Source of the DNA: Nitrospirota bacterium
GTDB lineage: Bacteria > Nitrospirota > Thermodesulfovibrionia > Thermodesulfovibrionales > UBA6898
Direction of reading: 5' to 3'
Assembly: GCA_024275975.1 (NCBI GenBank)
Contig: JAJRYC010000068.1
Span: 1 to 42,366 of the forward strand
DNA: 42,366 nucleotides
The notes under the pieces are model-generated. The model was not told the DNA's origin, did no database searches, and was given only the letters and a program-made list of their open reading frames with translations. Position numbers and translations under genes: made by a program. This document shows positions 8,015 through 23,551 of this stretch, piece after piece. Within the stretch, counting starts at the first letter, position 1; every line of letters starts with the position of its first letter.

Positions 8015-8041
8015 TTGACAAGAGTGTAAAAGATTTATAAT
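8015..8041 (+). promoter_or_regulatory. Putative main promoter of magnetosome cluster
   Basis: Perfect consensus hexamers TTGACA (8015-8020) and TATAAT (8036-8041) with a 15-bp spacer, slightly shorter than ideal. An AT-rich 5' region follows, and the first gene of the cluster starts at 8165. No other promoter this good was noticed inside the 15-kb block. Confidence 0.65.
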
Positions 8042-8164
8042 ATCAACATTATTGTGATTATAAGTTAATTATTATTTTTTATATATTTGAAGAACACCTG
8101 TTTTATGGGGCAAAAATCTGCCCGAAAGTAAAAAACACGACGCAGTACTAAAGAAGGTCAGGCT

Positions 8165-8653
8165 ATGAAATCAGCAGCACAAAAAGGTATTTCATACAGT
8201 AAGAGCCTTGTTACGGAAACCGGTAAGTATGTCTGGGCCACTGCCGAGTATACAGGTCTCCTCACCGCAAGCTATGTAATGAGGAGCGGCGATCTATTAA
8301 CGAGTGCCGTGAGCAGGCTAGCCGAGCCGATAAAAAAGATACCTTTAAACTCACCCCTGAAATACTGCAAGGAGACAGCCTCCAGGGTCGCCTCATTAAC
8401 AAGCGCGGGGGTCAAGGGCCTTGGCAAGGTAATCCCCCGTTCCGGGGCAGAGCCGCTTGTTTTTGACACTGAAAGGATAGCGAGGATAGAAGAGATGCTT
8501 ATGCAGATAGACAGGCGTCTCGATGCGATGGAGAGCGGTGGTGCGGTTTACAGGTCCAGGGCTGTTGTTCAGGAAAAGGCGAAGCTGGGCGAGGCAAGGG
8601 ACATGCTGTTGCGTCAACTCGTTGAGGCCAACAAGCAATTGAAAGAGGCGTGA
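8165..8653 (+). CDS. Magnetosome-cluster protein of unknown function, helical
   Basis: I do not recognise a named family. The 162-residue product is predicted mostly helical, with a moderately hydrophobic segment around residues 28-48 (TAEYTGLLTASYVM) and a charged C-terminal coiled-coil-like half (ERIARIEEMLMQIDRRLDAME, then KLGEARDMLLRQLVEANKQLKEA). It is the first gene after the cluster promoter, with GAAGG before the ATG, and lies 46 bp upstream of mamK. Nitrospirota magnetosome clusters carry lineage-specific genes called man and mad, and this may be one of them, perhaps linking MamK to the membrane. That is inference from position. Confidence 0.7.
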   Translation: MKSAAQKGISYSKSLVTETGKYVWATAEYTGLLTASYVMRSGDLLTSAVSRLAEPIKKIPLNSPLKYCKETASRVASLTSAGVKGLGKVIPRSGAEPLVFDTERIARIEEMLMQIDRRLDAMESGGAVYRSRAVVQEKAKLGEARDMLLRQLVEANKQLKEA

Positions 8654-8699
8654 CCAACGCTGGGGCGCATACAGAAATTATAGAGAGAGGAGTTTACAT

Positions 8700-9755
8700 A
8701 TGACCAAGCCGAAGCTTTTAAACGTGGGGATTGACCTTGGGACGTCAAGGAGTGTTATTGCCTGTGACAATGGGATGAGGATGTTTCTTCCGAGCTATGT
8801 GGGATTTCCAAAGGACAGGGTGTCGCAAAAGATGCTCGGGAAGGAAGTCGTCTTCGGGGAAGAGACTCTCAAGCACAGGATGTCCCTCGAGTTCTACAGG
8901 CCGATTGAGGCCGGTGTGCTGAAACACTCCGATGACCCTGATAAGGACCCCGAGGGCTACAGGAAGACCGTGGAAGTAGCAAGGACGCTCCTTGCACACC
9001 TTGTTGAGCAGGCGACTGCCGAGGAGGAAGGGGATGTTGTGATCCGTGGGGTTATCGGGGCGCCGGCCTTGGCCAGCAGGAAGAACAAAAAGGCACTCCT
9101 GGACATATCAAAGGGCATATTCGAGACGGTCATGATAGCCTCCGAACCCTTTTGTGTTGCCTATGGGCTGGGGCATCTGAGTAACGCCCTTGTTATAGAT
9201 ATAGGCGCTGGAACTGTTGACCTCTGCCGGATGCACGGCACAGTGCCTGACGAGGCGGACCAGATAACCACTTTTAAGGCAGGGGACACGATAGACCAGG
9301 TCTTTTACGAACTTATAACCAAAAAGTATCCGGAAGCAGGCCTTACGGTGAATATGGTGAAGCGTTTCAAGGAAGAAAACGCCACTGTTTCCGATCATGG
9401 AGACGCGATTTTCATCAACCTCCCCGTGAACGGAAAGCCCGAGATGCTCAACGTGACAGAGGAGCTAAGGGAGGCCTGCAGGGAAATCGTTCCGCACATA
9501 GTGGCCGGCATAAAGAAACTCGTTGCAACTTATGACCCCGAGTTCCAGAACGAACTGAAGAATAAAGTGATATTGGCCGGGGGCGGGAGCCAGATAATAG
9601 GATTGGCGAAGGAGATAGAGGACTTCATGAACGCGGCCCTCGGCTCCGGCAGGGTAACCAGGATCGAAGAGCCCCTCTATGCCGGGGCTAACGGGGCTTT
9701 GATGCTTGCTAAAGACATGCCCGAAGAGTACTGGTATGAACTGAGCGAGGCGTAA
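8700..9755 (+). CDS. mamK: MamK, magnetosome actin-like filament protein
   Basis: MamK polymerises into cytoplasmic filaments that align and segregate magnetosome chains. The 351-residue protein has the actin/MreB fold motifs in order: phosphate-1 GIDLGTSRSVIACDNG (residues 9-24), phosphate-2 VIDIGAGTVDLCRMHG near residue 165, and the adenosine-binding LAGGGSQIIG near residue 299. The RSVIACDNGMRMFLPSYVGFPKD stretch is typical of MamK rather than MreB, and the length (MamK about 347-360) fits. An AGAGAGGAG ribosome-binding site precedes the ATG. The neighbours (mamP, mamM, mamB, mamA, mamI, mamE, mamQ) confirm the assignment. It could be the Mad28-type actin branch; phylogeny is needed to separate these. 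Confidence 0.93.
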   Translation: MTKPKLLNVGIDLGTSRSVIACDNGMRMFLPSYVGFPKDRVSQKMLGKEVVFGEETLKHRMSLEFYRPIEAGVLKHSDDPDKDPEGYRKTVEVARTLLAHLVEQATAEEEGDVVIRGVIGAPALASRKNKKALLDISKGIFETVMIASEPFCVAYGLGHLSNALVIDIGAGTVDLCRMHGTVPDEADQITTFKAGDTIDQVFYELITKKYPEAGLTVNMVKRFKEENATVSDHGDAIFINLPVNGKPEMLNVTEELREACREIVPHIVAGIKKLVATYDPEFQNELKNKVILAGGGSQIIGLAKEIEDFMNAALGSGRVTRIEEPLYAGANGALMLAKDMPEEYWYELSEA

Positions 9756-9758
9756 AAT

Positions 9759-9971
9759 ATGAAGGCCAAGTGGCTGCTTGCGCTGATTTTCCTTTTTCTT
9801 GCTGTTGTATTTCTGGACCAGAACAATGTGCCCGTGCCTGTAAAGGTGATCTTTGGTAAACCCTTTTATTTCCGCCTGAGCCTTATAATCCTTGTAAGCG
9901 TCGGCGTCGGCGCATTGCTGACCCTGGCGGGGATCAGGCTGCGGAAGCAGATCAAGGCAAAAAGACCTTAA
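9759..9971 (+). CDS. LapA-domain small membrane protein, MamL-like
   Basis: A 70-residue protein with two membrane helices (about 4-22 and 38-58), separated by a short segment VPVPVKVIFGKPFYFRLSL, ending in a basic tail RLRKQIKAKRP. This is the LapA/DUF1049 layout. MamL of Magnetospirillum has the same size, topology and basic C-terminus and is needed for magnetosome membrane invagination, so a MamL-like role is attractive here. Sequence similarity to MamL is only general, and I leave the symbol empty. The ATG follows the mamK stop by 3 bp, so translation is probably coupled. Confidence 0.7.
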   Translation: MKAKWLLALIFLFLAVVFLDQNNVPVPVKVIFGKPFYFRLSLIILVSVGVGALLTLAGIRLRKQIKAKRP

Positions 9972-9984
9972 GGAGGTTAAAGAG

Positions 9985-10335
9985 ATGGGGAAGGGACTGC
10001 GTTATAATATCGAGCATATTGGAGACACCTTTATTGATGTGATAATCAAGGCGTCAGACGCTGCAAGAACCTCTGCAAAAGGGATTGTTCTGACTTATGA
10101 TCTGAACGACCTGAAAAGGAAGAGAAGAGAGATTGTTCGCGGCATAGGGGAGAGGCTTGTACAGTTAAGGAAAGATGATCCCGGCCTCAACATAGCAGCG
10201 GATGAAGAGATGACCCGTCTCCTGTCTGAATTCGACAGGATCGAAAAAGAGATCGAGGCTGCCGAAAGGGAGCTTAAAGAGAGGCTCTACCCACGCAAGA
10301 GGGAAACGGACCAGATAAAAAATACCGGTTATTGA
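9985..10335 (+). CDS. Coiled-coil protein of magnetosome cluster, unknown
   Basis: Not recognised as a known family. The 116-residue protein is highly charged and predicted helical: an N-terminal part (FIDVIIKASDAARTSAKGI), then LNDLKRKRREIVRGIGERLVQLRKDDPG and, after a break, LSEFDRIEKEIEAAERELKERL, suggesting a helical hairpin. The helix-turn-helix arrangement with a basic start and an IGxR/L core also occurs in the HEAT-SAP protein at 19153 (IKELYYEIGRMEAG), so the two may interact with a shared partner. AAGGAGG precedes the ATG. It sits between the LapA-like and YtxH-like genes in the mamK-mamP operon. Confidence 0.7.
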   Translation: MGKGLRYNIEHIGDTFIDVIIKASDAARTSAKGIVLTYDLNDLKRKRREIVRGIGERLVQLRKDDPGLNIAADEEMTRLLSEFDRIEKEIEAAERELKERLYPRKRETDQIKNTGY

Positions 10336-10352
10336 GAAAGGAGGCAGGCTTT

Positions 10353-10529
10353 ATGTCAAAGATTTTCGCTGGTGTCTTTTTTGGGGTTTTTATTGGGGCA
10401 CTGGCTTACGAGACGCTTAACAGAAGTAATCCCGAGCTGGTTCAAAGAATCAGGAATAAAGTATCGAAAAAGCTGGACGACTATCTCGGTCCGATAGAGA
10501 CCATCGAAGAAGGGGCGCAGCCTGAATGA
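10353..10529 (+). CDS. YtxH-like small membrane protein
   Basis: A 58-residue protein starting at ATG 10353, chosen because AAAGGAGG (10337-10344) lies 8 bp before it; an upstream in-frame TTG is less likely. It has one glycine-rich N-terminal membrane helix (IFAGVFFGVFIGALAYETL) followed by an amphipathic helix LVQRIRNKVSKKLDDYLG, the pattern of YtxH/gas-vesicle-like small proteins. The function is unknown; it may coat or curve the magnetosome membrane, but this is speculation. Its stop overlaps the mamP start as ATGA, so the two are translationally coupled. Confidence 0.65.
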   Translation: MSKIFAGVFFGVFIGALAYETLNRSNPELVQRIRNKVSKKLDDYLGPIETIEEGAQPE

Positions 10530-11485
10530 GCTTTCCCCGCAAGATTGAAAGTCCTGTTTTTGTGGTTCTGATCGTATTGCTTGGAATATATTTCTATTTC
10601 ATTTACCCGAGCAGTATCTCCATCCCGATCCCGGACCTGAGTTTGCGGAACTGGGATGAGAGGGTTTCTTCTCTCAGAAACGGCGATTTTTACGGCGCCC
10701 TTGTCGGTGAGCAGGACCCATCATATCACTATCAGGATGATGACCAGCAGGTCGTTGTGTTTAACAACAATACAGGGGATCCCGGGGTCCCGCGGGGGGA
10801 TCTCCTTCAGCAGGGCGGCCAGACCCAGTCCGAGTGGTTTGTCAATCCCCTGAAGCGATCGCCACAGCTTAATGACCAGGTCAACGGACTGGTTCCTGTC
10901 GGGAACGTGCCTCAGCCACCAGCCGTACAGCAAGTGGCGCCGGACAAGGTGCTGCAGGAGGGACACTGGATCGGCCTTGAAGTGATCAGCCTTTCGTCTG
11001 CTATCGCAAGAGCCAACAATATCCCTGATAATGTCAGGGGTGTGCTCATAGACGAGGTGACGCTGCTTGCCGCGGAATCAGGCCTTCTTGCGGGAGACGT
11101 AATTACAGGGGTGGCCGGATCCCGGTTGCAGGACCTCCGTTCATTCAAAGATGCGACCCGGCAGGTGGCCGGTCTTCGTCAGGCGGTGGTCTCTGTTTTC
11201 AGGAAAGGTAGGAATTTCGATATAGAGGTTGTCGGAACCGAAGAACTCGGGATTGCCCAGATGGAGGCCGCGCCGATGATAACTGCCGCCGCTACCCGGC
11301 CCCACGGCTATTATGGCCCCTGCGACAGGTGCCATGCTATATCGAAGACCACAGCCAATCCCGGTCACCTCGCAAAGGACCAGGGAGATGTACTGGCCGG
11401 GACCGCACCCCCGATCGGGACAGGCGCTGCGCGACCGCACAGGGAAAGGGGAGATTGTACCAGTTGTCACACGATATTGCCCTGA
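10526..11485 (+). CDS. mamP: MamP, PDZ and double magnetochrome protein
   Basis: MamP is a membrane-anchored c-type cytochrome of the magnetosome lumen that oxidises Fe(II) and tunes the ferrous/ferric ratio for magnetite. In this 319-residue protein one membrane helix lies at about residues 10-27, followed by a long linker rich in Q and D, a PDZ domain at about 148-235 (IGLEVISLS, GLLAGDVITGV), and two magnetochrome motifs: CDRCH at 266-270 and CTSCH at 311-315. Each is preceded by the expected PH (RPHGYYG, RPHRERG). The PDZ-MCR1-MCR2 order and length match MamP. The start overlaps the preceding gene by 4 bp, and the end overlaps mamM by 22 bp. Confidence 0.93.
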   Translation: MSFPRKIESPVFVVLIVLLGIYFYFIYPSSISIPIPDLSLRNWDERVSSLRNGDFYGALVGEQDPSYHYQDDDQQVVVFNNNTGDPGVPRGDLLQQGGQTQSEWFVNPLKRSPQLNDQVNGLVPVGNVPQPPAVQQVAPDKVLQEGHWIGLEVISLSSAIARANNIPDNVRGVLIDEVTLLAAESGLLAGDVITGVAGSRLQDLRSFKDATRQVAGLRQAVVSVFRKGRNFDIEVVGTEELGIAQMEAAPMITAAATRPHGYYGPCDRCHAISKTTANPGHLAKDQGDVLAGTAPPIGTGAARPHRERGDCTSCHTILP

Positions 11486-12387
11486 CAAAAGAGACGTCCG
11501 GCGAGTTTTCCGACTGCACCTCGTGTGAAAAGAGGGCCATCTGGGTCTCTGTTCTGCTGAACCTGGCCCTCACGATCTTCAAGGCCGTTATAGGTGTCTT
11601 CAGCGGAAGCAAGGCCGTACTCGGTGACGCCCTCTATTCATTAAAGGACTTCGTGGCCTCCCTTGCAGTGCTGATAGGTGTGAGGGTCTCCAATAAACCG
11701 GCTGACGAGAACCATCCTTATGGACACGGCAAGATAGAATACGTGGTGGTGTTTCTTATCAGCATTCTTATAATCGGGGCGTCCGTATTCCTCTTTGTTC
11801 ACTCTGTAAAGAATCTCTGGCTTGCCTTTGACGGTCATCACATGTCTCCGCCGAAGTTCATCGCCTTTTTTGCCGCCGTTATATCAGTAATAGCGAATTA
11901 CAAGCTCTCCGGCTATCTCCGATGTGTCGGCACGAGGCTCAAGAGCCCTGCCATACTGGCCAGCGCTGAACATAACCATTCCGACGCCACGTCCTCTATC
12001 CTTGTTGCAGGGTCGATTCTCGGGGCAAGGTTCGGTTTTTATTTCCTTGACCCCCTTGCCGCTGCGATCGAGACCGTGGACCTGCTGAGGCTGAGTGTCA
12101 ACATGTTGAACCATTCCCTGACGGGTATGCTCGACTCGAGTGAGAGCGCCGATGTGAAGGAGGAGATAAGGTCGGTTGTCGGCCTTGTACCGGGTGTCAG
12201 GGGGATACCGATGCTCAAGTCAAGGCGGGTCGGCCAGAATAAGTGGATAGACATCATCATCAAAGTTGATCAGGACCGCTCCGTTGAAGAGGGGCACAGG
12301 ATCGGTCTGCATGTTGAGCAGACGCTGAAAAAGGCCATCGGTAATATTGCCGGTATAACTTTATCCGTGGAACCGGAGGTCAAGTGA
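11464..12387 (+). CDS. mamM: MamM, magnetosome cation diffusion facilitator
   Basis: MamM is a CDF-family iron transporter of the magnetosome membrane that partners with and stabilises MamB. The likely start is TTG at 11464, with AAGGGGAG ending 10 bp upstream, giving 307 residues and a 22-bp overlap with mamP; the longer frame would run far into mamP. Signs of MamM rather than MamB: helix 2 has Tyr58-x3-Asp62 (ALYSLKD) instead of His-x3-Asp, and helix 5 has EHNHSD. The HPYGHGKIEYVV loop and the C-terminal VPGVRGIPMLKSRRVGQNKWIDI domain fit. An N-terminal CxxC (Cys18, Cys21) parallels that of MamB. Confidence 0.92.
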   Translation: MSHDIALTKETSGEFSDCTSCEKRAIWVSVLLNLALTIFKAVIGVFSGSKAVLGDALYSLKDFVASLAVLIGVRVSNKPADENHPYGHGKIEYVVVFLISILIIGASVFLFVHSVKNLWLAFDGHHMSPPKFIAFFAAVISVIANYKLSGYLRCVGTRLKSPAILASAEHNHSDATSSILVAGSILGARFGFYFLDPLAAAIETVDLLRLSVNMLNHSLTGMLDSSESADVKEEIRSVVGLVPGVRGIPMLKSRRVGQNKWIDIIIKVDQDRSVEEGHRIGLHVEQTLKKAIGNIAGITLSVEPEVK

Positions 12388-12501
12388 CTCTTGCGTGTTT
12401 TCGAGGTTGTTCGCGGAGAGACAGAGAATGTCCGGCCCGGTTGCATGCTGAGAGAGGGAATGCATTCCGGTGCCGGAATTCGGAATGGTGAATGAGAATA
12501 G

Positions 12502-13158
12502 ATGAAAAAAGACTGGCTCATTAAGGCGCTCGACCTGACGGGAGCTTCCCTGCCATCAATACATAGGAAGGTGGCGGAGCGGAGGCTTGAGTTCGAGTTG
12601 CGCCATGAAGGGAGGTCAAAGGAATTTATCTCACATGTCCTCGGCAGCCGCCTTATAAGGGAGAAGGCATTGAGGACAGGTGGCATGGGCGGGATTCTTG
12701 CCGCGCCTGCAACGCTCCCGCTGATCGGCGCCATAGGAACAATAGCCATGGGTGTGACTGTGGATCTCTTCTATCTCATGCGTGCTCAGGTGGATCTCTG
12801 CTATGAGATGTCCGCTACTTACGGGACAGAGTTGGACGAAGAGGAGTTAAAGGCAGTTGTGCTCGCCCTGCTAGGCCTCTCGGGCAGCGCAGGAGCCCTT
12901 AAGGGGATAGCTGCAACGACGTTGAAGAATGTGGTTGACCATATGTCTTCGAGCTACCTCAGGAAGGGGTTGAGCAAGTCGGCGGTGGAAGTGGCTGAAA
13001 AGATGGGCCCCCGGATACTGGGCAAGGCCTACAGGCTGATCCCCCTGCTGGGTATACCTCTGAGCGCCTCCATTAACATGGCATCAACCATGATGGTCGG
13101 CAACCAGGCGAGAAAGTATTTCAGGACGACGGGAGAGGGCTTGATTAATGAAATATAA
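12502..13158 (+). CDS. EcsC-like protein in magnetosome cluster
   Basis: The 218-residue protein contains a glycine/alanine-rich central region, GGILAAPATLPLIGAIGTIAMGVTVDLFYLMRAQVDLCYEMSATYG at about 53-99, whose order (APxTLPLIG, then xDLxYLMRxQxxLxxxxAxxYG) resembles the EcsC family of membrane-associated proteins. The C-terminal half repeats a similar hydrophobic-glycine pattern (RILGKAYRLIPLLGIPLSASINMASTMMVG). Biochemical function of EcsC proteins is unknown. It lies 114 bp after mamM with only a weak ribosome-binding site, and overlaps the next mamQ-like gene by 11 bp, so it is probably co-translated with it. It may be one of the lineage-specific man genes. Confidence 0.7.
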   Translation: MKKDWLIKALDLTGASLPSIHRKVAERRLEFELRHEGRSKEFISHVLGSRLIREKALRTGGMGGILAAPATLPLIGAIGTIAMGVTVDLFYLMRAQVDLCYEMSATYGTELDEEELKAVVLALLGLSGSAGALKGIAATTLKNVVDHMSSSYLRKGLSKSAVEVAEKMGPRILGKAYRLIPLLGIPLSASINMASTMMVGNQARKYFRTTGEGLINEI

Positions 13159-13708
13159 GGCGAAAATCCTGCTTATCACATTGTCGGTCTTCCTGGTCTC
13201 TTTTGCGGTATTCGGCTACAACAGGTTTATTGACAAATTGCACCTTCTCCATATAGCCGATGGCAGGGTTGAGGCCGAGCTGCAGCGCAGGTATATCGTC
13301 AACTCCCGGAGCAGGGCGGCGGCGGAGCAGTACCTTGAGACAGAGGGCAAGATACAGGAGCGCCTGATTGAGCTTAATCGAATCATAAGGTCCGGCAGAC
13401 AGGCCGGCAGGCAGGCGGAGACCGAAAAGGAATTGGTCGGACTGGTCGAAAGGCTCGATGTGTTGAAGGAGGAATATCCAGGGCTCAGGACAAAAGGCCC
13501 CTATCTCTTTCTGATGGAGACTATCCAGGATTCGGGCTGGCGGGTGACCATGGAGAAATTCCGGTATAATGAAACTGTTTATGATTACAACCTTATGAGG
13601 CATATATTCCCCTTTAAACCCGTTGCCTTCCTGTTCGGTTTTCACGAGGAGTCTTTCATGAGGGCGGAGAAGGGAGCAGAACGGGTTCCCGGCGTCGGTC
13701 GGTCTTAA
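13148..13708 (+). CDS. mamQ: Divergent MamQ-like (LemA fold) protein
   Basis: A 186-residue protein with one N-terminal membrane helix (about 7-24, ITLSVFLVSFAVFGYNRF) followed by a helical domain. The YNRF...RVEAELQRR arrangement matches the start of the LemA domain in MamQ (YNxF...VxAxLQRR), but the usual PNLV segment is replaced by YIVNSRSRAAAEQYLETEG, so it is a diverged copy. MamQ is needed for magnetosome membrane formation in Magnetospirillum. A second, canonical mamQ lies at 17381. Two mamQ paralogues occur in several Nitrospirota clusters according to my recollection of the literature. The start overlaps the EcsC-like gene. Confidence 0.75.
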   Translation: MKYKAKILLITLSVFLVSFAVFGYNRFIDKLHLLHIADGRVEAELQRRYIVNSRSRAAAEQYLETEGKIQERLIELNRIIRSGRQAGRQAETEKELVGLVERLDVLKEEYPGLRTKGPYLFLMETIQDSGWRVTMEKFRYNETVYDYNLMRHIFPFKPVAFLFGFHEESFMRAEKGAERVPGVGRS

Positions 13709-13717
13709 GCAGAGCGA

Positions 13718-14641
13718 ATGCAATACGAAGAATGTATAAAATGTGCAAAGTGGTCCCCGCGCCTGAGTGTGCTGGGCAATCTCCTTGCGGCTGTCTTCAA
13801 GTTCGTTGTGGGAGTGCTCGCCGGAAGCAAGGGGCTGGTGGCCGACTCTCTCCATTCAGCGGCTGACGCCATCTCTTCGCTCTTCATACTCATATCCCTG
13901 AAGATATCGGGCAAGCCCAGGGACGAGGACCATCCGTACGGTCACGGCAAGGTGGAGTACATCAGCTCCCTTGTGGCGAGCGTCTTTCTCTTTTTCGGCG
14001 CCACGGCAATATTCCTTGATGCCCTGCACACATTCAGCGCCGGCGGAGTTAGGGGTGTCCCTAACAATGCCGCGATAGTGGCGACCATCATCTCTCTCGT
14101 CTATAGCTATCTGATGTACTCGTCGAACAAGTGTACCGGCACGCAGATGGAAAGCCCCGCCCTGCTGGCTGACGCGGCTGAAAGCAAGGCTGACAGTGCG
14201 GCCTCTCTTGCGGTGCTGGCCGGGCTTATAGGCACGAAGATGGGGTTTGTTCATGCCGATACCATAGCCGCCGTGGTGGTATCACTTCTGGTCTTTCACA
14301 TGAGCGTGGAGATCTTCTTTACCGGCGTGCACGGCCTGGTGGATGTGGCCGTGGACAAGGAACTGCTTGATGAAATCCTGGGAGTAAGCCGGGCAGTGGA
14401 AGGGGTCAGGGAAGTGAGTGATATAAAGACCCGCCGGATGGGACAGAAAAACGCTGTCGACATCAGTGTGGAAGTGCCGAGCAATACCAGCGTCCTCGAT
14501 GCACACAGGATAGCCGGGAACGTCAAGGCCGCGATACAGGGCCGGATAGGCAGCGTGGAAGCAATATTTGTGAGGACTGTCCCTGAAGGGACTCCCTGGG
14601 CGAGGCGGCTCGTGAGGAACATCCTGGATTTCAGATTGTAG
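13718..14641 (+). CDS. mamB: MamB, magnetosome cation diffusion facilitator
   Basis: MamB is a CDF iron transporter and a key factor for magnetosome membrane invagination. The 307-residue product begins MQYEECIKCAKW with a Cys6-x2-Cys9 pair as in Magnetospirillum MamB (CRDC). Helix 2 has the canonical site His46-x3-Asp50 (SLHSAADA), and HPYGHGKVEYISSLVASVFLF follows. Helix 5 has ESKADSAAS, where Asp is kept but the other ligand position is Glu. The C-terminal cytoplasmic domain contains GVREVSDIKTRRMGQKNAVDISVEV. It is separated from mamM by the EcsC-like and mamQ-like genes. No strong ribosome-binding site is visible before the ATG. Confidence 0.93.
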   Translation: MQYEECIKCAKWSPRLSVLGNLLAAVFKFVVGVLAGSKGLVADSLHSAADAISSLFILISLKISGKPRDEDHPYGHGKVEYISSLVASVFLFFGATAIFLDALHTFSAGGVRGVPNNAAIVATIISLVYSYLMYSSNKCTGTQMESPALLADAAESKADSAASLAVLAGLIGTKMGFVHADTIAAVVVSLLVFHMSVEIFFTGVHGLVDVAVDKELLDEILGVSRAVEGVREVSDIKTRRMGQKNAVDISVEVPSNTSVLDAHRIAGNVKAAIQGRIGSVEAIFVRTVPEGTPWARRLVRNILDFRL

Positions 14642-15632: not shown

Positions 15633-17384
15633 ATGGAAAGCGGAAAGAATACAAACCAGCCAGGCACGGAAGGAAGGGCCCCGGCCGGGACCTGTCCCCG
15701 GAACTATAAGCCCTGGGTCTGGACACTCGTTGTTATGGCCATCCTGACGCTCGCCTGGGCCGTATACGAGAACGTCAGGGAGGAAGGCATCGTCGGCGCC
15801 CTGTTAGAAGCCGGAGACTTTACGGCCGTGAAGAACGGGGACCGAGGTCCAGTTACGCGGACGGCTGCCGTGAAGGGGACTGTTGGTGGCCTGCAGTTAT
15901 CCTATCACGACATCATCGAGAAGGTGAGACCGGCGGTTATCAGTGTGAACGCCGCTGTCGCCCCGGCACAGATGGGCAGTGCGCCGGCAGGCGCCACCCC
16001 CAGCCTGGTGGCCGGGCCTCCCACGGTGAATTATACGAGGGTGGGCTCCGGAGTGATAATAGACTCGAATGGTTATGTGCTCAGCAGCCTCCATGTTATA
16101 AAGGGGGCCTCTGTACTCAAGGCAACGGTTTACGGCAAGGGTGGCTCCAGGGAATATCCGCTGAAGGTGGTGAATGCCGACAACAAGACCGACCTGGTGC
16201 TCCTGAGGATCCAGGGCGAAGAACGGTTTCCCTACGCTACACTCGGAGATTCGGACATGATGAGGACCGGCGATGTGGTGCTCGCGATGGGGAGCCCCTT
16301 TGGCTTTGACCAGACCATAACCGCCGGCATAATAAGCAGCAGGCACAGGACCCTGCACATAGGCAATGAGATCTATGAGGACGTTATCCAGACGGACACC
16401 CCTATTAACAAGGGCAACAGCGGAGGCCCACTGGTGAACGTGAGGGGTGAAGTGATAGGGCTAAACACTGCAATTTATTCTCCGACAGGCTCTTTCAGCG
16501 GGATAGGTTTTTCCATTCCCGTCAACAGCGCCTCCACCCTGGTGTCCGGTGTCGTGGACTTCAGGGACGCCCCTGTACAGGTGGCTGGAGGACAGATCGT
16601 GGCCTGGACGAGGCAGGGCAGGCAGAGGGGTAACTCCTACAAGCTGCCGGGAGGACAGATTATCAACCCACCCCACCAATATCGCGGCAAGTGCAGGGAC
16701 TGCCACCCGCAACTGAAAAAGGGGATTATCGGTTTCAACAGACAACAGGCGACCCCAGCCCCCGGCATGCAACAAAATAGCGAGCCCTTTCTCGGAATGA
16801 ACCTCATAGAGGTGAACGACGTGGTGGCGAGGAGTTTCGGCCTCCTTAACCCCCGGGGCCTTTTAGTTGACAGGGTTTATGCCGGGACTCCGGCTGCCGA
16901 AGCAGGACTGTCAAGGGGGGACATCATCATGAGGGTCGATGGCCGGAAGATAAGGGGTCTCAAGCTCTTCAAAGAGGTCCTCGCCTCCAAGAGACTAGGG
17001 GAGAGTTTTGACCTGGCGCTGTGGCAAAACGGCGGCAGGGAGACGGTTACGGTAAAGAGCATTCCATACCCGGCCTTTATGCCGAGGCAGCAACCCGGAG
17101 GCACTCCGGGGCCCGCGGAGTTTGAGTGGCTCGGCGCTGAATTCATGCCCCTGGACGCCGCCCTTTCAGCCTATGTGAAGCATGGCGTCTATGTGGCGGA
17201 GGTCGAGGGATTCCTGGCCGGGTCAGGCCTGCGGAAAGGCGACATAATTCAGGCCTTTGACGGTAAAAATGTGACGGACATGAACGCATTTATCGGTCTT
17301 GCGAAGAAGGCCAGGCCGAGGAAAGGCTTTCTGCTCGAAATCCTCCGCTCCGGAAGCCCCATGTATATAACGGTGAAGGGATGA
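15633..17384 (+). CDS. mamE: MamE, magnetosome HtrA-like protease with magnetochrome
   Basis: MamE sorts magnetosome proteins and controls crystal maturation through proteolysis. In this 583-residue protein a membrane helix at about 28-46 is followed by a trypsin-like domain (about 88-310) with an intact triad: His154 (SSLHVIKG), Asp187 (NKTDLVLL) and Ser263 (KGNSGGPL). One magnetochrome motif CRDCH lies at 354-358 after PPHQYRGK. Two PDZ domains follow, at about 385-475 and 495-580. Magnetospirillum MamE has two CxxCH motifs; only one is present here, so heme content differs. The stop overlaps the mamQ start (ATGA). AAGGAGA precedes the start. Confidence 0.94.
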   Translation: MESGKNTNQPGTEGRAPAGTCPRNYKPWVWTLVVMAILTLAWAVYENVREEGIVGALLEAGDFTAVKNGDRGPVTRTAAVKGTVGGLQLSYHDIIEKVRPAVISVNAAVAPAQMGSAPAGATPSLVAGPPTVNYTRVGSGVIIDSNGYVLSSLHVIKGASVLKATVYGKGGSREYPLKVVNADNKTDLVLLRIQGEERFPYATLGDSDMMRTGDVVLAMGSPFGFDQTITAGIISSRHRTLHIGNEIYEDVIQTDTPINKGNSGGPLVNVRGEVIGLNTAIYSPTGSFSGIGFSIPVNSASTLVSGVVDFRDAPVQVAGGQIVAWTRQGRQRGNSYKLPGGQIINPPHQYRGKCRDCHPQLKKGIIGFNRQQATPAPGMQQNSEPFLGMNLIEVNDVVARSFGLLNPRGLLVDRVYAGTPAAEAGLSRGDIIMRVDGRKIRGLKLFKEVLASKRLGESFDLALWQNGGRETVTVKSIPYPAFMPRQQPGGTPGPAEFEWLGAEFMPLDAALSAYVKHGVYVAEVEGFLAGSGLRKGDIIQAFDGKNVTDMNAFIGLAKKARPRKGFLLEILRSGSPMYITVKG

Positions 17385-18124
17385 AAGAGATAATAAAGAA
17401 ACTATATGCCGAGGAACTGGAACTCATAGCTCCGGCTCCTCCCGCTGTGGACACCGGGAAGAGAAGCCTCCTGGTCCGCCTGAGGGCCTTCCTGTGGGAA
17501 CGGCATACGGGTCCGATCAAGGTGGCCCTTGCGGCGTTTGTTCTGGCCTGTATCTCCGCCACCATCTACTACTACAATATATTCACGATCAACAACTTCA
17601 AGGTGAGGCTTGAGATGGCGCAGATCGAGGCCCACCTCCAGAGACGCAACGATCTTATCCCGAACCTGGTGGCTGCTGTAACGGATTACATGGATTATGA
17701 AAAGGACATATTCAGGCATGCAGCCGATGTGAGGGCCGCTATCAAGGGGATAGCGAGTTCCGCAAGGGATGTCTCCAGGCCTGAAGACTTCATGTCGGCG
17801 CTCACCAAGTTCCAGGCCGTGGCAGAGAATTATCCCCTGCTTAAGGCCTCTGACGCTTACCAGACGCTGATGAAGGAGCTTGCCAATACCGAGACGCTTA
17901 TTGCGGAGGCGAGGATGAATTATAACAGGGCGGCCAATTATTATAACTCCCGACTCCGGATGTTTCCTGCTAATCTTTTCAATCTGCTTCTCAGTTTCTA
18001 TCCCGTGGATACCTTTGAGTCCGAGGTAGTGGCAAAGACCGCTCCCGGTATGAGAGGGGCCGATGAGGTGAAAGGCGTGGTCCAGGATCCAGGGACCGAA
18101 GGCCCGGTGGATCAGACGCCCTGA
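17381..18124 (+). CDS. mamQ: MamQ, LemA-domain magnetosome membrane protein
   Basis: A 247-residue protein with a cytoplasmic N-terminus of about 45 residues, a membrane helix at about 47-65 (KVALAAFVLACISATIYYY), and a LemA-type helical domain. The NIFT after the helix, AHLQRRNDLIPNLVAAVTDY and EKDIFRHAADVRAAI match MamQ closely (YYYNxFT, ALQRRxxLxPNL). MamQ is required for magnetosome membrane formation. This is the canonical copy, as opposed to the diverged one at 13148. It is coupled to mamE by a 4-bp overlap. The last 25 residues are polar and probably disordered. Confidence 0.93.
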   Translation: MKEIIKKLYAEELELIAPAPPAVDTGKRSLLVRLRAFLWERHTGPIKVALAAFVLACISATIYYYNIFTINNFKVRLEMAQIEAHLQRRNDLIPNLVAAVTDYMDYEKDIFRHAADVRAAIKGIASSARDVSRPEDFMSALTKFQAVAENYPLLKASDAYQTLMKELANTETLIAEARMNYNRAANYYNSRLRMFPANLFNLLLSFYPVDTFESEVVAKTAPGMRGADEVKGVVQDPGTEGPVDQTP

Positions 18125-18201
18125 GTGCCCGGCAGGTATCATAGATGTGAGCGAAAAAACGGTCCACGGAATTGCCGCCAAGGCGAATAAAGGGAGTTTT
18201 A

Positions 18202-19095
18202 ATGAGAAAAGTCTTTCTGCTTTTGACGTCTATAGTAGTAATATTAGCGATCTGTTTGCCTGCCGGTGTTGCTGAAGCGGCTACGCACACTACAGGGGTG
18301 GCGAACACCTTTCTCCTTGTTATTATAGGGATTTTTGTCGGGGCCGTGGGTACCCTGATAGGCGCCGGCGGCGGATTCCTGGTTGTGCCTATCCTTATAA
18401 TCTTCTACGGCTTCTCCCCACAGCTTGCTGTCGGCACATCCATGGCCGTTGTATTTTTTAATGCCGTTTCAGGGACCTTTTCATACATGGCCCAGAGCAA
18501 GGTGGATTACGAATTGGGTGTCAAGTTTGCCGTGGCGGCAGTGCCGGGTATATTTATCGGGGCCTTTGCCACCCAGGCCGCTAATGTCACCTTTTTTTCA
18601 GGCCTCTTCGCCTGCCTGATGCTGACGATGGCCTATCTGCTCATCTTTGTCAGGGACCTCCAACTCGTTACATCGGCGGCAGGCAGCTCCAGTGCGAGGA
18701 TAATCCGGGACTCTTCCGGCGCTGAGCACGTTTATACCACGGACCTCTCCATAGGGACGGGAGGTAGTTTTCTGGTCGGGATCATATCGGGTCTCTTCGG
18801 CATCGGCGGTGGGATAATTCACGTTCCTTTAATGAGTTTTATAGGTATGCCCATGCATATTGCCACAGCCACTTCGCATTTTATTATAACCATCACAAGT
18901 CTTATCGGCATGCTCATCTTTCTCGGACTGAATACCGTTGAGATCGATTTCGCCATACCCCTCGGGATAGGGGCGATAATAGGCGCTTACGCAGGGGCGA
19001 ATCTGGCCCTGATCACAGGGGCGGAGGCCATAAAGAAGATTATCGCGGTCCTGCTTTTATTGGGCGCGGCCAGATTGCTTGCCGGAGTCTTGTGA
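18202..19095 (+). CDS. TauE/SafE permease, MamO C-terminal-like
   Basis: The 297-residue product starts at ATG 18202 (AGGGAG just upstream; an earlier in-frame TTG is less likely). It has a signal-like helix ending at AEAA, then about eight membrane segments with the TauE/SafE duplicated motif: GTLIGAGGGFLVVPILII near residue 53 and GLFGIGGGIIHVPLM near 200. In Magnetospirillum, MamO combines a degenerate protease domain with a C-terminal TauE domain; here only the TauE part exists, as an independent gene directly after mamE and mamQ. It may do the job of that part of MamO, or transport an anion. The symbol is left empty because the protease part is absent. Confidence 0.8.
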   Translation: MRKVFLLLTSIVVILAICLPAGVAEAATHTTGVANTFLLVIIGIFVGAVGTLIGAGGGFLVVPILIIFYGFSPQLAVGTSMAVVFFNAVSGTFSYMAQSKVDYELGVKFAVAAVPGIFIGAFATQAANVTFFSGLFACLMLTMAYLLIFVRDLQLVTSAAGSSSARIIRDSSGAEHVYTTDLSIGTGGSFLVGIISGLFGIGGGIIHVPLMSFIGMPMHIATATSHFIITITSLIGMLIFLGLNTVEIDFAIPLGIGAIIGAYAGANLALITGAEAIKKIIAVLLLLGAARLLAGVL

Positions 19096-19152
19096 TTCCA
19101 GTTCCTGGACAGGGTACAGTCTAAAACAAAATTTATGAGTGAGGAGGTAATA

Positions 19153-20832
19153 ATGACTAACAATTCATCAAGCAGACCGGCCCTGCTGGCCAGTGTGGCC
19201 AAGGCCCTGAACGCCGGCGGCAAAGCCGTTGTTTCCGTGTATGACACAGGCTCGGGCCTGGTGGAGAAGATCTTCTCCACCGTAAGTCAAGCGACTGTCC
19301 TGCCTGAAAAGGCGATGGACCTCGCTGAACGACTCGGATCGGTAGAAAAGTGGAATATAGAAAAGGAGATCAAGGCATCCCGGGCCAGGATAAAGGAACT
19401 GTATTACGAGATAGGCCGCATGGAGGCCGGGCTTCCTGAATCTGCCGGACCTTCCGAGAGGGAGCCATTGAAGAGGTTGATTGCGGAAGTCAGGGAATAC
19501 GAGCAGGAGATCGGGAGGCTGAAGACCAGGCTTGCGGAGATTGGAGCCGCGCAGGCCGGGAGGATGCCGGCTGAAGCCGATGTGGTCAAATCCGTGCAGA
19601 GCGCTATTGAAGAGGGGTTGAAGTCCGGGGTCTTTGACGACCCAGGGGGAAAGGCCCTCTTTGAGCGGGTGGCGAAGGACCTCCTCGACAACAATCTCGG
19701 TGTCAAGCTGCTGGCAGTGGCAGAGCTCGGGAAGTTCGGCAACGAGGCCTGTGTCCCTGTGCTGATCAGTGCCGCAGGGTTCAGGACTCCTGAACTCCAG
19801 TCTGAAATAATAAGCATGCTTGTGAGTATAGGTGACAAGCGGGCCGTTCCCTTATTGAAGGAGCAGTTGTCCTCCCCAAGCTACAGGGTGAGAACGGGTT
19901 GCCTGAGGGGGCTTTACAGGCTGGCGGATGAAGAGGAACTACTCCCCCTTCTGACCGGGGCCCTTGGTGACAGCCATCCGGATGTGAGGGTGACGGCAGC
20001 CACTTTGCTCGGTTGGAAGGGAAACCCTGCTGCTGTCACAGCCCTTTCTCTCTGCCTGAAGGACAGGGACGAAGCCGTGAGAAGGGCGGCCATATCCGCC
20101 CTTGCCAATATAGGGGACAGTGCTGCCGTGCTTCCCTTGATCGGCGTGTTGGGAGACAGGAGTGCGGAGATACGACAGAAGGCGCTTGAGGCCATAACGT
20201 CTCTCACCGGCAAGGAGATAGCATTTGATGTCCAGGTGGAAGGAAAGGCCCTCTCCGGGGATATTGACCGGCTGAAAGAGTGGTGGAAGAGTGAATCAGG
20301 GGAGGACCGGTCTGAAGTCGGTATTGAGGTGGAAGCCGAGGCCGGTGTTGCGGATGAAGTTGAGTCCGATGCGGATGAAGGGCGTGAGCAGGAGACGGTC
20401 CAGGCACGCGAAGAGGACATGGAGAAGACAGACGTGGAAGCTCCCGGTGCGGAAGAAGAACCCGGGATCGGTATCCCCGGGGTGGAGGAGGCACTGGCGA
20501 GTATTTCATCCGAGGCCCTCGCTGAGATAGAAGAGGCGGAATCCGCGGAAGGAGAGGAAGTGGTTGTCTCTGAAGGGCAGGATGATATGGATATTGAGGT
20601 GACCATCGCCGAGGAGACTGAAGGTGACTCTGGAAAAGAGATGAATCTTGAAGCGGTATTCGCCGAAGAGGTGAAGGAAGAACCCGGTGGTGAGGTGGAA
20701 AGCCCCAGTGAGAGCAAGCTGAAGAAGATGCAGCGGGCCGACCTCATAACCCTCTGCAAGGAGTGGGGAATTGAGTGTGATGAGACATTTACAAAGGCGG
20801 AGATGATAAAGCGCCTGACCGGACGGAAGTGA
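19153..20832 (+). CDS. HEAT-repeat protein with coiled coil and C-terminal SAP-like motif
   Basis: Unnamed 559-residue protein, start at ATG 19153 because AGGAGG lies 5 bp upstream. Regions in order: an N-terminal hydrophobic/glycine stretch (about 8-45), a coiled-coil hairpin (about 60-135), HEAT/PBS-lyase-like repeats (about 175-365, such as RAVPLLKEQLSSPSYRVRTGCLRGLYRL and PAAVTALSLCLKDRDEAVRRAAISALANIGD), a long very acidic low-complexity segment (about 380-515), and a C-terminal SAP-like helix pair (LKKMQRADLITLCKEWGIECDETFTKAEMIKRL). SAP motifs usually bind DNA, and acidic stretches could bind iron or basic partners. Location between the TauE gene and feoB places it in the magnetosome operon. 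The function is unknown. Confidence 0.78.
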   Translation: MTNNSSSRPALLASVAKALNAGGKAVVSVYDTGSGLVEKIFSTVSQATVLPEKAMDLAERLGSVEKWNIEKEIKASRARIKELYYEIGRMEAGLPESAGPSEREPLKRLIAEVREYEQEIGRLKTRLAEIGAAQAGRMPAEADVVKSVQSAIEEGLKSGVFDDPGGKALFERVAKDLLDNNLGVKLLAVAELGKFGNEACVPVLISAAGFRTPELQSEIISMLVSIGDKRAVPLLKEQLSSPSYRVRTGCLRGLYRLADEEELLPLLTGALGDSHPDVRVTAATLLGWKGNPAAVTALSLCLKDRDEAVRRAAISALANIGDSAAVLPLIGVLGDRSAEIRQKALEAITSLTGKEIAFDVQVEGKALSGDIDRLKEWWKSESGEDRSEVGIEVEAEAGVADEVESDADEGREQETVQAREEDMEKTDVEAPGAEEEPGIGIPGVEEALASISSEALAEIEEAESAEGEEVVVSEGQDDMDIEVTIAEETEGDSGKEMNLEAVFAEEVKEEPGGEVESPSESKLKKMQRADLITLCKEWGIECDETFTKAEMIKRLTGRK

Positions 20833-20880
20833 TATGACACAGACAGTTATATCCCGGTTATGAACGGGAGGCGTCAGTAA

Positions 20881-22872
20881 ATGAAAAAGTGTTCCGAGTG
20901 TGACGGGAATGACCCTTTAGGGGACCACAAAAGCCGTACTCTGGCTATCGTTGGAAATCTTAATGTTGGAAAGTCCGTGCTTTTTGAGCGTATGTGCGGG
21001 ACCAGGACTACAAGTTTCAATGTCCCTGGCACAACGGTGTCGGTCAGGAAAGGACATATAAAGGGAACGGACTATGACGTATACGATACCCCCGGGGCGT
21101 ATTCGATTTTTTCGATGAACGAGGATGAAAGGGCCTCAAGGGACCTCCTGCTGGTGGGAGGGGACTCTCTCTGTGGTGTTGATGGGATAATCCTTGTGGC
21201 GGATGCAAAAAACCTGAAGCGTTCAATAGCCATTGCACTCCAGTATGCCGGTTACGGACTGCCCATGCTCCTGGTTGTTAATATGGTGGATGAGGCCGCC
21301 TCCAGGGGTATTGAGATCGACAGTGATAGTCTCTCGGAAGTTTTCGGAATAGACGTCTGCACGACGGTTGCCAGCGACGGGATCGGTGTCAGCAGTGTCA
21401 TATCCCGGCTTAATGGTATGCGGGTTCCACGAAGACTGGTCGAATATCCGGCGGCGGCCAAGGGATTCCTCGAAATCATGGACAAGCTCTTAACGTCGAC
21501 TGTGGTTTCACCGGAGGCGCTCGGGCTGCTTCTGCTCAATGGCGACAGGAGGGCGGAGGAATACGTGGAGAGAAACTTTGGTCCAGGGATGTTGAAGCAG
21601 GTCAAGGACCTCGTTGATGAGTTCCAGCGGGAGGCCCCGGGGGAGTGCAGGGTCCAGATGGGGACACTCTATAACATGAAGGCGGTGCAGATCGCCTCCA
21701 TGGTCCAGGAGGTTGAGCCCCCATCCAGAAACGAGTACCTTATAACCTTTGGAGACTGGTGTACGCAGTTGCGTACGGGGATCCCGATCGCCTTCGCGGT
21801 CCTGGTGCTGATGTATCTGTTCGTGGGTGTTTTCGGGGCCACCTTCCTTGTGAATACCATAAACGGTACGATCTTTGAAGGCTTCCTGATTCCCTGGGTG
21901 AGCAAGGTTGTTGAGCCCATACCGAGTCAGTTACTGCGGGACATGATAGTTGACCCTGATTTCGGTGTATTGCCCACTGGTGTCTTCCTTGCCCTCGGGC
22001 TGGTATTGCCGGTTATCTTCTGTTTTTACATAGCATTCAGGATACTGGAGGACTCGGGATATCTCTCTCGGATCTCGATCCTTCTTGACAAAATCTTCAA
22101 AAAGATGGGACTCAACGGCAAGGGTGTCATACCTCTTGTGATGGGGTTTTCCTGTGTAACGATGGCCATACTGACGACGCGAATGCTCGACACAAAGAAG
22201 GAGCGGTACATTGCAACCTTCCTCCTTCTCCTCGGCATGCCCTGCGCCCCTTTGCTCGCGGTCATGCTCGTTATACTGAACAGGTTGCCCATATCGGCGA
22301 CCATTACCGTATTCGGGATAATCTTTTCACAGATGCTTATTGCAGGTCTCCTGGCAAACAGGATTTTGCCCGGGGAGAGGGCCTCTCTCCTGATGGAGAT
22401 TCCTCCCATGCGGGTGCCGAACCTCTTCCAGGTGCTGAAGATATCGGCGTCAAAGACCTGTTTTTTCATGAAAGAGGCGGTGCCCATATTTATCATGGCC
22501 TCCCTTGTTGTTTTTCTTTTTGAAAGGGCGGGGGGACTGGCGGCCCTTGAGAGGTTTTTCAGGCCTGTGATCAGCGGATTCATGGGGCTACCCGAAAAGA
22601 GCGTGCAGGTTTTTATCAAGACCGTGATCCGCAGGGAGAGTGGGGCTGTTGAGCTTGAGCACATCAACGGTATTTATACCAACCTGCAGCTTGTAGTGAA
22701 CCTGCTGGTGATGACATTTCTGACACCGTGCATCAACGCGACCATCGTTCTTTACAAGGAACGCGGAGGAATGGCGGCCTCCGCGATCATCGGGGCCGTG
22801 ACCGTGTATGCCGTTGCAATCGGGAGCATAGTAAGTCAGACCTGCCGTTTTTTCGGAATTACATTCACATAA
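20881..22872 (+). CDS. feoB: FeoB-type ferrous iron transporter
   Basis: FeoB imports Fe2+ using a cytoplasmic G domain and a membrane channel. The 663-residue product has G1 GNLNVGKS at 25-32, G2 region FNVPGTTVSVRKG, G3 DTPGAYS, G4 NMVD, then about nine membrane helices with the gate-like FSCVTMAILTTRM and GMPCAPLLAVMLV segments. An N-terminal CSECDG pair of cysteines is unusual. It is shorter than E. coli FeoB (773) but within the range of compact family members. Magnetosome clusters of Nitrospirota and Desulfobacterota often hold a feoB (mad17-type) gene, and the DtxR-FeoA fusion downstream supports an iron role. GGGAGG precedes the ATG. Confidence 0.93.
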   Translation: MKKCSECDGNDPLGDHKSRTLAIVGNLNVGKSVLFERMCGTRTTSFNVPGTTVSVRKGHIKGTDYDVYDTPGAYSIFSMNEDERASRDLLLVGGDSLCGVDGIILVADAKNLKRSIAIALQYAGYGLPMLLVVNMVDEAASRGIEIDSDSLSEVFGIDVCTTVASDGIGVSSVISRLNGMRVPRRLVEYPAAAKGFLEIMDKLLTSTVVSPEALGLLLLNGDRRAEEYVERNFGPGMLKQVKDLVDEFQREAPGECRVQMGTLYNMKAVQIASMVQEVEPPSRNEYLITFGDWCTQLRTGIPIAFAVLVLMYLFVGVFGATFLVNTINGTIFEGFLIPWVSKVVEPIPSQLLRDMIVDPDFGVLPTGVFLALGLVLPVIFCFYIAFRILEDSGYLSRISILLDKIFKKMGLNGKGVIPLVMGFSCVTMAILTTRMLDTKKERYIATFLLLLGMPCAPLLAVMLVILNRLPISATITVFGIIFSQMLIAGLLANRILPGERASLLMEIPPMRVPNLFQVLKISASKTCFFMKEAVPIFIMASLVVFLFERAGGLAALERFFRPVISGFMGLPEKSVQVFIKTVIRRESGAVELEHINGIYTNLQLVVNLLVMTFLTPCINATIVLYKERGGMAASAIIGAVTVYAVAIGSIVSQTCRFFGITFT

Positions 22873-22888
22873 TGAAGGAGGCCGGCCC

Positions 22889-23551
22889 ATGCTGAACGAA
22901 GAACAGGAAGAGATACTGGAGGCGATCTGGATTGCCGGGGAGTATAAGAATTGTTCGATAGATTCCGTCAGAAATCTCTGCGTCATAGACTTTTCTGAGG
23001 CTGACGTTGCAGAGCTTGCGCGGAAGGGCCTTGTCGTAATGAATGCCGGCAAGGTGCTTTTTTCGGGCGAGGGCAAGAAAATATCCGAGGGCATCATAAG
23101 GAGACACCGTCTGGCCGAAGTGCTGGTGTCGAGTATCCTGAAACTGAAGGAGTCCGACATGGAAAAGGTGGCCTGCAAGGTCGAACACGCCCTGCTGCCG
23201 GAGGTGGAGGAATCGATCTGCACACTCCTTGGACATCCGGAACTCTGCCCCGACGGAAAGCCGATTCCAAAGGGCAGGTGCTGCGAAGACAGGCGCAGGG
23301 AGGTGAACAATACCGTGGTCAGCCTGGTTGAACTCAATCCCGGTGAGAGTGGCAAGATTACTTATATCAAGCCGGGGAGTCATTCAAACCTGCATCAGCT
23401 GATATCCCTTGGCCTGCACCCCGGGATTATAGTTACACTGCACCGGTCACACCCGGTCTTCTGTGTGAAGTTTGAAAATACCGAGGTTGCACTGGACAGG
23501 GACATAGCCGCCAATATATTTGTGTGGAGGGTTAATCCTGACGGATGTTAG
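22889..23551 (+). CDS. DtxR-family metalloregulator fused to FeoA domain
   Basis: The 220-residue protein has a DtxR/MntR-like N-terminal winged helix (about 1-65), a dimerisation/metal domain (about 68-125: IIRRHRLAEVLVSSIL, KVACKVEHALLPEVEESICTLLGHPELCPDGKPIPKG, with candidate ligands His, Cys and Glu), a short CCEDRRREV linker, and a C-terminal FeoA/SH3-like domain (about 143-215: LVELNPGESGKITYI, LGLHPGIIVTLHRS). It probably senses Fe2+ and represses iron uptake or the cluster itself. The HTH helix sequence is diverged. It follows feoB by 16 bp with GGAGG before the ATG and is the last gene of the rightward magnetosome block. Confidence 0.88.
   Translation: MLNEEQEEILEAIWIAGEYKNCSIDSVRNLCVIDFSEADVAELARKGLVVMNAGKVLFSGEGKKISEGIIRRHRLAEVLVSSILKLKESDMEKVACKVEHALLPEVEESICTLLGHPELCPDGKPIPKGRCCEDRRREVNNTVVSLVELNPGESGKITYIKPGSHSNLHQLISLGLHPGIIVTLHRSHPVFCVKFENTEVALDRDIAANIFVWRVNPDGC

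Follow-up and report, generated by a model that had tools for sequence, protein, structure and literature searches.

A compact man-type magnetosome gene cluster, probably acquired as a block, in a Nitrospirota lineage that probably lacks flagella

Introduction

Does a shortened set of magnetosome genes found in a Nitrospirota bacterium constitute a genuine magnetosome gene cluster (MGC), how did it reach its host, and what could it be used for? From man1 to mad26, Nitrospirota MGCs are reported to vary remarkably little (PMC8353452), and the part played by vertical inheritance or by transfer in their distribution is debated (PMC9376291). The stretch of DNA analysed here (42,366 nucleotides, hereafter the window) belongs to a MAG, the only genome known to carry this cluster. 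The reading we prefer, to which we give a probability of about two in three, is that of a compact man-type MGC, brought in as one block through horizontal transfer, in a Nitrospirota lineage probably without flagella.

Gene content of the cluster

The MGC is of the man/mad type and occupies positions 8165-23551 of the window, its closely spaced genes all lying on the plus strand. The products recognized in an earlier note on this DNA (MamK, MamP, MamM, two MamQ, MamB, MamA, MamI and MamE, together with FeoB and a DtxR-FeoA regulator) were all found, on one strand and with short spacing. The features are the following:

8015-8043 (+): candidate sigma-70-like promoter, TTGACA-17-TAATAT, upstream of man1; motif scan
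8165-8653 (+): man1, unknown function; position, 26-40% identity to the genes at this place in other MGCs
8700-9755 (+): mamK, magnetosome actin; NF040964, 463 bits (cut-off 400), MamK clade
9759-9971 (+): man2, small membrane protein with LapA domain; 41-70% identity to other MGCs, LapA_dom just under cut-off
9985-10335 (+): mad10; 28-50% identity, position as in other MGCs
10332-10529 (+): man3; 41-64% identity, position as in other MGCs
10526-11485 (+): mamP, PDZ and two magnetochrome CXXCH motifs; domain/profile matches, motifs
11455-12387 (+): mamM, CDF iron transporter, TTG start, overlaps mamP; NF033615, 369 bits (cut-off 350), MamM clade
12502-13158 (+): mad31, EcsC-domain protein; domain match, comparison with other MGCs
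13148-13708 (+): mamQ-II, LemA family; profile matches, comparison with other MGCs
13718-14641 (+): mamB, CDF transporter; profile match, Mam clade in tree
14707-15360 (+): mamA, TPR protein; profile matches, comparison with other MGCs
15397-15621 (+): mamI; NF040963, 73 bits (cut-off 80)
15633-17384 (+): mamE, HtrA-like protease with PDZ domains and one CXXCH; profile matches, motif
17381-18124 (+): mamQ-I, LemA family; profile matches, comparison with other MGCs
18172-19095 (+): mamO-Cter, TauE-like transporter; profile matches, 48-67% identity to other MGCs
19135-20832 (+): mad23, coiled coil and HEAT repeats; profile matches, comparison with other MGCs
20881-22872 (+): feoB, Fe(II) importer; profile matches, foreign composition as in the mam genes
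22889-23551 (+): DtxR-type metal regulator with C-terminal FeoA domain; profile matches
23804-24381 (-): parDE-like toxin-antitoxin pair at the 3' edge, outside the MGC
24731-26512 (+): uvrC, native flank; 57-72% identity to family members, shared downstream order

The eight core genes (mamA, B, E, I, K, M, P and Q) are all present and clustered, far beyond what chance would produce. In the profile search of the products, MamK and MamM exceeded their cut-offs, while MamB, P, A, I, E and Q matched their own Mam models below the NCBI cut-offs. Seven further genes that the earlier note had not named (man1, man2, mad10, man3, mad31, mamO-Cter and mad23) were assigned by sequence and position; man1 had no Pfam or NCBIfam match, and man2 is considered MamL-like (PMC9840458). 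No DNA-binding-domain match was obtained in the N-terminal part of the DtxR-FeoA regulator. The order man1-mamK-man2-mad10-man3-mamP-mamM-mad31-mamQ-mamB ... mamO-Cter-mad23 is that of the reference clusters (PMC8353452, PMC9376291), and the same gene order was found in more than 20 other MGCs. None of the 18 MGC genes is a pseudogene, and only 21 of 527 columns (4.0%) that are invariant in other MGCs are changed here, compared with 2.6-6.3% in six other divergent MGCs. The window cluster is a true MGC, in a family where no other MGC was found. Position 8015, given as its start in the earlier note, is the candidate promoter site upstream of man1; the promoter scan as a whole gave results close to chance (15 sites versus 12.9 in shuffles), and the site is a candidate only.

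The missing genes

The cluster had been considered reduced for want of mamN, mamT, mms6, mmsF and a full mamO. That argument does not hold, since the published Nitrospirota MGCs run from man1 to mad26 without any of these genes (PMC8353452) and mamF and mamT are listed as restricted to Pseudomonadota (PMC9840458); on the basis of this literature, we rejected the lack of mms6, mmsF or mamT as a sign of reduction. The actual reduction is the absence of mad2, man4-6 and mad24-26 from the cluster. There is no room for mad2, as mamB is followed by mamA after 65 bp, and on the cluster contig man4-6 were not found directly after mamQ-I, nor mad24-26 after mad23. Genome-wide searches for mad24, mad25, man6 and mad28 gave no match, positive-control MTB genomes matching each time, the mad25 profile being one built from Nitrospirota that may miss distant relatives. 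For the mad28 actin, five control MTB genomes match and the window genome (G000) does not. For Man4-6, Mad24-26 and Mad28, a role in chain organisation has been either suggested or demonstrated (in Desulfovibrio magneticus RS-1, PMC12748827). Of the functional unit for building and aligning magnetosomes that the earlier note had envisaged, the true MGC stands, and the aligning is doubtful, the greater part of the network known to organise chains being absent.

Phylogenetic placement

In trees, MamK, MamM and MamB are placed within the Mam clades (support of 100, 99 and 100, respectively), separate from MreB, from other actins and from ordinary CDFs, and the outcome that would have spoken against the cluster according to the earlier note, namely Mam proteins outside these clades, does not arise for these three proteins. 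MamE, assigned from profile scores, a CXXCH motif and synteny, scores higher with the general HtrA model (314 bits) than with the MamE model (254 bits); magnetochrome CXXCH motifs are present in both MamP and MamE. In the concatenated, unrooted MGC tree, the window MGC forms a deep separate branch, grouping with Geobacteraceae/Desulfuromonadales, FK1.bin72 and 4_1_Jan_SF_Bin16 on one side (support of 99). For mad24-26, whether lost or never present, this unrooted tree requires one change. Matches to the MamK family were tried and rejected as an MGC marker; the model passes its cut-off for a second actin type, found above that value in 41 genomes of the order having no MamM match at the threshold used.

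Origin of the cluster and motility of the host

The GC content of the MGC is 54%, versus 47% in its flanks and in the genome, and its tetranucleotide distance is larger than that of all 22 background chunks, which cover about 10% of the genome. The composition shifts sharply at both edges of the MGC, and that of feoB is as foreign as that of the mam genes. The cluster thus has the deviating GC and tetranucleotide composition of a genomic island. Mobile elements, an adjacent tRNA and direct repeats are not associated with it: tRNAs of the window lie only at 1798 and 38002, no end repeats or att-like repeats were found at the edges (the longest end match is 11 bp) and the window proteins examined include no recognizable integrase or transposase.

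Both flanks share the composition of the window genome. On the uvrC side, identity of UvrC reaches 57-72% with family members versus 46-55% with Magnetobacteriaceae and Dissulfurispiraceae; the window and family members also have in common the order uvrC-pfkB-APH-RNaseH-ctp-envC-ftsX-ftsE. Judged from sequence and gene order, this flank is native. No clean empty insertion site was found: in family members a TPR gene precedes uvrC, and the 16-17 kb compared there contain none of the genes that lie upstream in the window, so that the MGC occupies a rearranged place. Altogether, it is likely that horizontal transfer brought in the MGC as one block. In some family members GC is about 50-51%, and three regions from their genomes come nearer to the island than the window genome does; the donor may thus have belonged to the family or to its close relatives, or the MGC may have descended vertically with many losses. 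Regarding the age of the island, intact genes could mean merely that the transfer is recent.

The host shares its order with genomes matching named Magnetobacteriaceae contigs, and its family differs from the Magnetobacteriaceae and Dissulfurispiraceae genomes compared. In its genome (a 97% complete bin), neither FlhA nor rod/hook proteins (PF00460) gave a match; all eight other MTB genomes tested have 6-7 rod/hook proteins. The earlier note had proposed a magnetotactic or formerly magnetotactic Nitrospirota: the phylum is confirmed, and a magnetotactic host is doubtful given that no flagellar genes were found and that the cluster seems to stem from horizontal transfer. Swimming magnetotaxis is therefore improbable for this host.

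Four other explanations were weighed. The cluster may be a dormant island, recently acquired, intact and yet silent or useless in its host, as in Rhodovastum atsumiense (PMC9938234). The foreign composition, the presence of an MGC in one family member only and the failure to find flagella that could exploit it favour this explanation; we consider it unlikely, though deserving of attention, because no pseudogene occurs among the 18 genes, conserved residues are kept, a candidate promoter lies upstream of man1 and feoB and the regulator travel with the MGC. Less probable still is vertical inheritance of an MGC that the ancestor of the family had and that every other member has lost: the deep branch in the MGC tree and the similar GC of some relatives would fit, but MamM is absent from 26/26 other family genomes, the host genome differs in composition from the MGC and, when non-MTB Nitrospirota were searched for remnants of MGCs in a published study, none were detected (PMC9376291). 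It is very improbable that the host is an ordinary swimming magnetotactic Nitrospirota whose flagellar and missing mad/man genes were dropped from the bin. The MAG is indeed in 111 contigs and about 97% complete, but FlhA, all rod/hook proteins, mad24, mad25, man6 and mad28 would have to be missing together, two relatives (G148 and G150) likewise lack both flagellar markers and the gaps of man4-6 and mad24-26 are visible inside one contig. Finally, a chimeric or misbinned contig, suggested by the sharp composition change at both edges, is the least probable of all, as it needs two false joins, one per side, whereas both flanks have the host composition, the uvrC side has the sequences and gene order of the family and the reported contamination is 0.3%.

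Possible function and significance

By analogy with studied homologues, the acquired compact cluster could work as follows. Fe(II) would enter the cell via FeoB under the DtxR/FeoA regulator, the vesicle would be made by MamI, Man2, MamQ and MamB, and MamB/MamM would load it with Fe(II). MamE and MamP (protease, PDZ, magnetochrome c-type hemes) may control redox state and nucleation together with MamO-Cter, while MamA would provide the coat and Mad10 would bind the crystal. The known organisers remaining would be MamK, Mad10 and Mad23. Because the genes are intact and conserved, formation of magnetite by the host is plausible, somewhat better than an even chance. We infer that the crystals would occur singly, as one chain or in clusters, and not as bundles of several chains. 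Such crystals, if formed, would have a use other than flagellar swimming, such as the orientation of cells that are attached or move on surfaces, the storage of iron or redox capacity, or a life with a motile host, on it or inside it. The full scenario, in which a flagella-less Nitrospirota makes magnetosomes from an acquired compact MGC, with MamK, Mad10 and Mad23 arranging them without the network of Mad24-26/28 and Man4-6, for a non-swimming use, is a tentative one.

The locus represents a natural deletion series, in which the genes for vesicle, iron and redox functions were kept and man4-6, mad24-26 and mad28 dropped, and could test the purpose of magnetosomes and which genes they really need. 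An island-like MGC in a native flank directly supports transfer within the order or into it. If the host truly has no flagellum and yet makes crystals, magnetosomes do more than steer swimming cells; the compact cluster would then mark a lower bound on the genes that this MGC type needs, and the making of magnetosomes would be separable from magnetotaxis. If no crystals are made, it would be the second natural case of an organelle cluster carried but idle.

Comparison with known systems

The man1-mad26 MGCs of Magnetobacterium, Magnetominusculus, Magnetomonas and Magnetomicrobium (PMC8353452, PMC9376291) have magnetochrome motifs and a separate mamO-Cter, as in the window. The window cluster differs from them by the lack of mad2, man4-6 and mad24-26 and by a directly attached feoB-dtxR/feoA pair, and its genome by the lack of detected mad28 or flagellar genes and by a different host family. 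Also exceptional is nDJH14bin9 (L131, L181), reported without man4-6 (PMC8353452); unlike the window, it presents two coiled-coil genes just before mamO-Cter, with weak man5/man6 profile matches, and contains mad24 and mad25. The man-type MGCs of Geobacteraceae/Desulfuromonadales and of the Nitrospirota FK1.bin72 and 4_1_Jan_SF_Bin16 resemble the window in having no convincing mad25 (FK1.bin72 gives weak partial matches only), the FK1.bin72 and 4_1_Jan contigs ending inside the cluster. However, in L114, the Desulfuromonadales cluster examined, the space from mamQ-I to mamO-Cter is filled by other genes, and the FK1.bin72 and 4_1_Jan genomes possess flagellar rod/hook genes.

The magnetosome-forming ciliate endosymbiont Desulfovibrionales DsD-1 (PMC13103400) resembles the window genome in having magnetosome genes although it is predicted to form no flagellum, but belongs to another phylum and has a reduced genome with a partial mad/mam cluster; symbiotic reduction is not implied for our host, because FlhA is missing from further members of its family as well. 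Rhodovastum atsumiense (PMC9938234) differs by its alphaproteobacterial magnetosome genes, which are not the man/mad set, and by its retained flagellar operons, and is like the window in that an island of foreign composition, gained by horizontal transfer, lies in a lineage from which no MTB are known.

Identity of the cluster

The window, an entire contig of 42,366 bp, comes from a 2.51 Mb metagenome-assembled genome of 111 contigs (96.9% complete, 0.3% contaminated), and two of its features concern us here:

8165-23551, + strand: 18 tightly packed genes, the magnetosome gene cluster (MGC); mamM starts with TTG at 11455 and overlaps mamP
23804-24381, - strand: toxin-antitoxin pair (ParE-like toxin, ribbon-helix-helix antitoxin) bordering the MGC on its 3' side, with dtxR and uvrC as neighbours

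Profile searches of the window's proteins identified MamK (463 bits, cut-off 400), MamM (369 bits, cut-off 350), MamB (249), MamP (221, with two magnetochrome domains), MamA (141), MamI (73), MamE (254, the general HtrA model scoring higher, 314, on the same protein) and two MamQ/LemA proteins. Among these Mam matches only MamK and MamM exceeded the NCBI cut-offs; those below were decided by synteny and, for MamB, additionally by a tree. The same gene order is found in other MGCs of Nitrospirota and Desulfuromonadales/Geobacteraceae, most proteins being 40-66% identical to the window's, and comparison with the published reference order (PMC8353452, PMC9376291) added man1, man2, mad10, man3, mad31, mamO-Cter and mad23 to the genes listed in the earlier note. 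In the trees which that note had proposed as a check, MamK groups with MGC MamKs (support 100), and MamB (100) is distinct from MamM (99), as both are from 16 ordinary CDF transporters. This shared order and placement within the Mam clades bear out its call: the cluster is a true MGC.

The NCBIfam MamK model also scores above cut-off (402-441 bits) for a second actin type of about 331 amino acids, which forms a group separate from MGC MamK. It occurs in 41 genomes of the order in which MamM was not matched at the threshold applied (e.g., stretches L028-L035 and L073-L075), and annotation pipelines may call such proteins MamK.

Intactness and proposed working

The cluster is not decaying. The catalytic GNSGGP of MamE and the CXXCH motifs of MamP and MamE are unbroken, and 21 of the 527 columns invariant across other MGCs (4.0%) are changed, compared with 2.6-6.3% in six other divergent clusters. 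By homology, shaping of the vesicle would fall to MamI, Man2, MamQ and MamB, iron transport to MamB/MamM, the supply and sensing of Fe(II) to FeoB with the DtxR/FeoA regulator, and control over nucleation and redox state to MamE, MamP and MamO-Cter. MamA, Mad10, MamK and Mad23 would have an organizing role. We consider it probable, at roughly six in ten, that the host makes magnetite.

Missing genes

The cluster had been described as reduced for want of mms6, mmsF, mamT and others. Genes are indeed absent, but not those, which are unexpected in Nitrospirota. In typical Nitrospirota clusters mad2 separates mamB from mamA, man4-6 separate mamQ-I from mamO-Cter, and mad23 is followed by mad24-26. 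The genes were observed at these positions in relatives; the positions are empty in the window, with only tens of bases in the mamB-mamA, mamQ-I-mamO-Cter and mad23-feoB gaps. Genome-wide, profiles of mad28, mad25, man6 and mad24, each matched in the five magnetotactic control genomes of its search, found no match. Convincing mad25 matches are also lacking in FK1.bin72, 4_1_Jan_SF_Bin16 and six Desulfuromonadales/Geobacteraceae genomes; since these and the window share one side of a 99-supported split in the concatenated MGC tree, presence or absence of mad25 amounts to one change on this unrooted tree.

A role in chain bundling was proposed for man5 (PMC9840458). In Desulfovibrio magneticus RS-1, mad23 connects crystals, and deletion of mad25 or mad26 leaves subchains clustered or in rings (PMC12748827). 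For the window's host, a magnetosome arrangement without multi-chain bundles is predicted.

The mamQ-I/mamO-Cter slot holds man4-6 in Nitrospirota, whereas a Desulfuromonadales man-type MGC has one beta-propeller-like and one J-domain-like gene there (L114:17128-19140). In nDJH14bin9, a cluster reported without man4-6, two coiled-coil genes precede mamO-Cter (L181:4602-6943); because they match the man5/man6 profiles weakly (31 and 82 bits), they may be divergent homologues. In FK1.bin72, mamQ-II directly follows mamM, without mad31 (L092:9114-9134).

Origin of the cluster

Horizontal acquisition is the simplest reading. GC content is 53-54% in the MGC and feoB-dtxR, 47-48% in the flanks and 46.8% in a genome sample; measured as tetranucleotide distance, MGC segments lie 0.39-0.48 from the genome and the flanks 0.04-0.08, while none of 22 background chunks exceeds 0.14. 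The flanking uvrC shares 57-72% identity with same-family genomes, 46-55% with those of Magnetobacteriaceae and Dissulfurispiraceae and roughly 54-58% with certain other families, and gene order 3' of it agrees with family members. MamM is absent from all 26 other family genomes, and the magnetochrome domain from those drawn in the phylum search. The order's other MGCs are confined to two related families, Magnetobacteriaceae and Dissulfurispiraceae (by contigs shared with named records, the latter as assigned in PMC9376291). Against acquisition count the GC of some family members, closer to the island's, and the failure to find a mobility gene or end repeat. The MGC has no close relative and sits on a long, deep branch of the concatenated tree. 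Beyond the host's order, Nitrospirota MGCs occur in FCS_M_Nitrospinota_09 (L134, G397; same class, other order) and 4_1_Jan_SF_Bin16 (L100, G181; other class).

Host motility and known systems

The earlier suggestion of a magnetotactic host is weakened by the window's genome, which has neither match nor candidate for FlhA, present in 7 of 26 other family genomes, and no match to the rod/hook domain PF00460, found six or seven times in each of eight other magnetotactic genomes of the phylum. As both markers are also absent from two related genera (G148, G150), their absence seems a lineage trait and not a binning gap, and flagellar magnetotaxis is an unlikely use of any magnetosomes. Precedents for an MGC without ordinary magnetotaxis are a magnetosome-making ciliate endosymbiont predicted to lack a flagellum (PMC13103400) and Rhodovastum atsumiense, whose MGC island was demonstrated to be silent (PMC9938234). 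The MGC described here is of a known type, and its novelty lies in being compact and island-like, with a host lineage that apparently lacks flagellar swimming.
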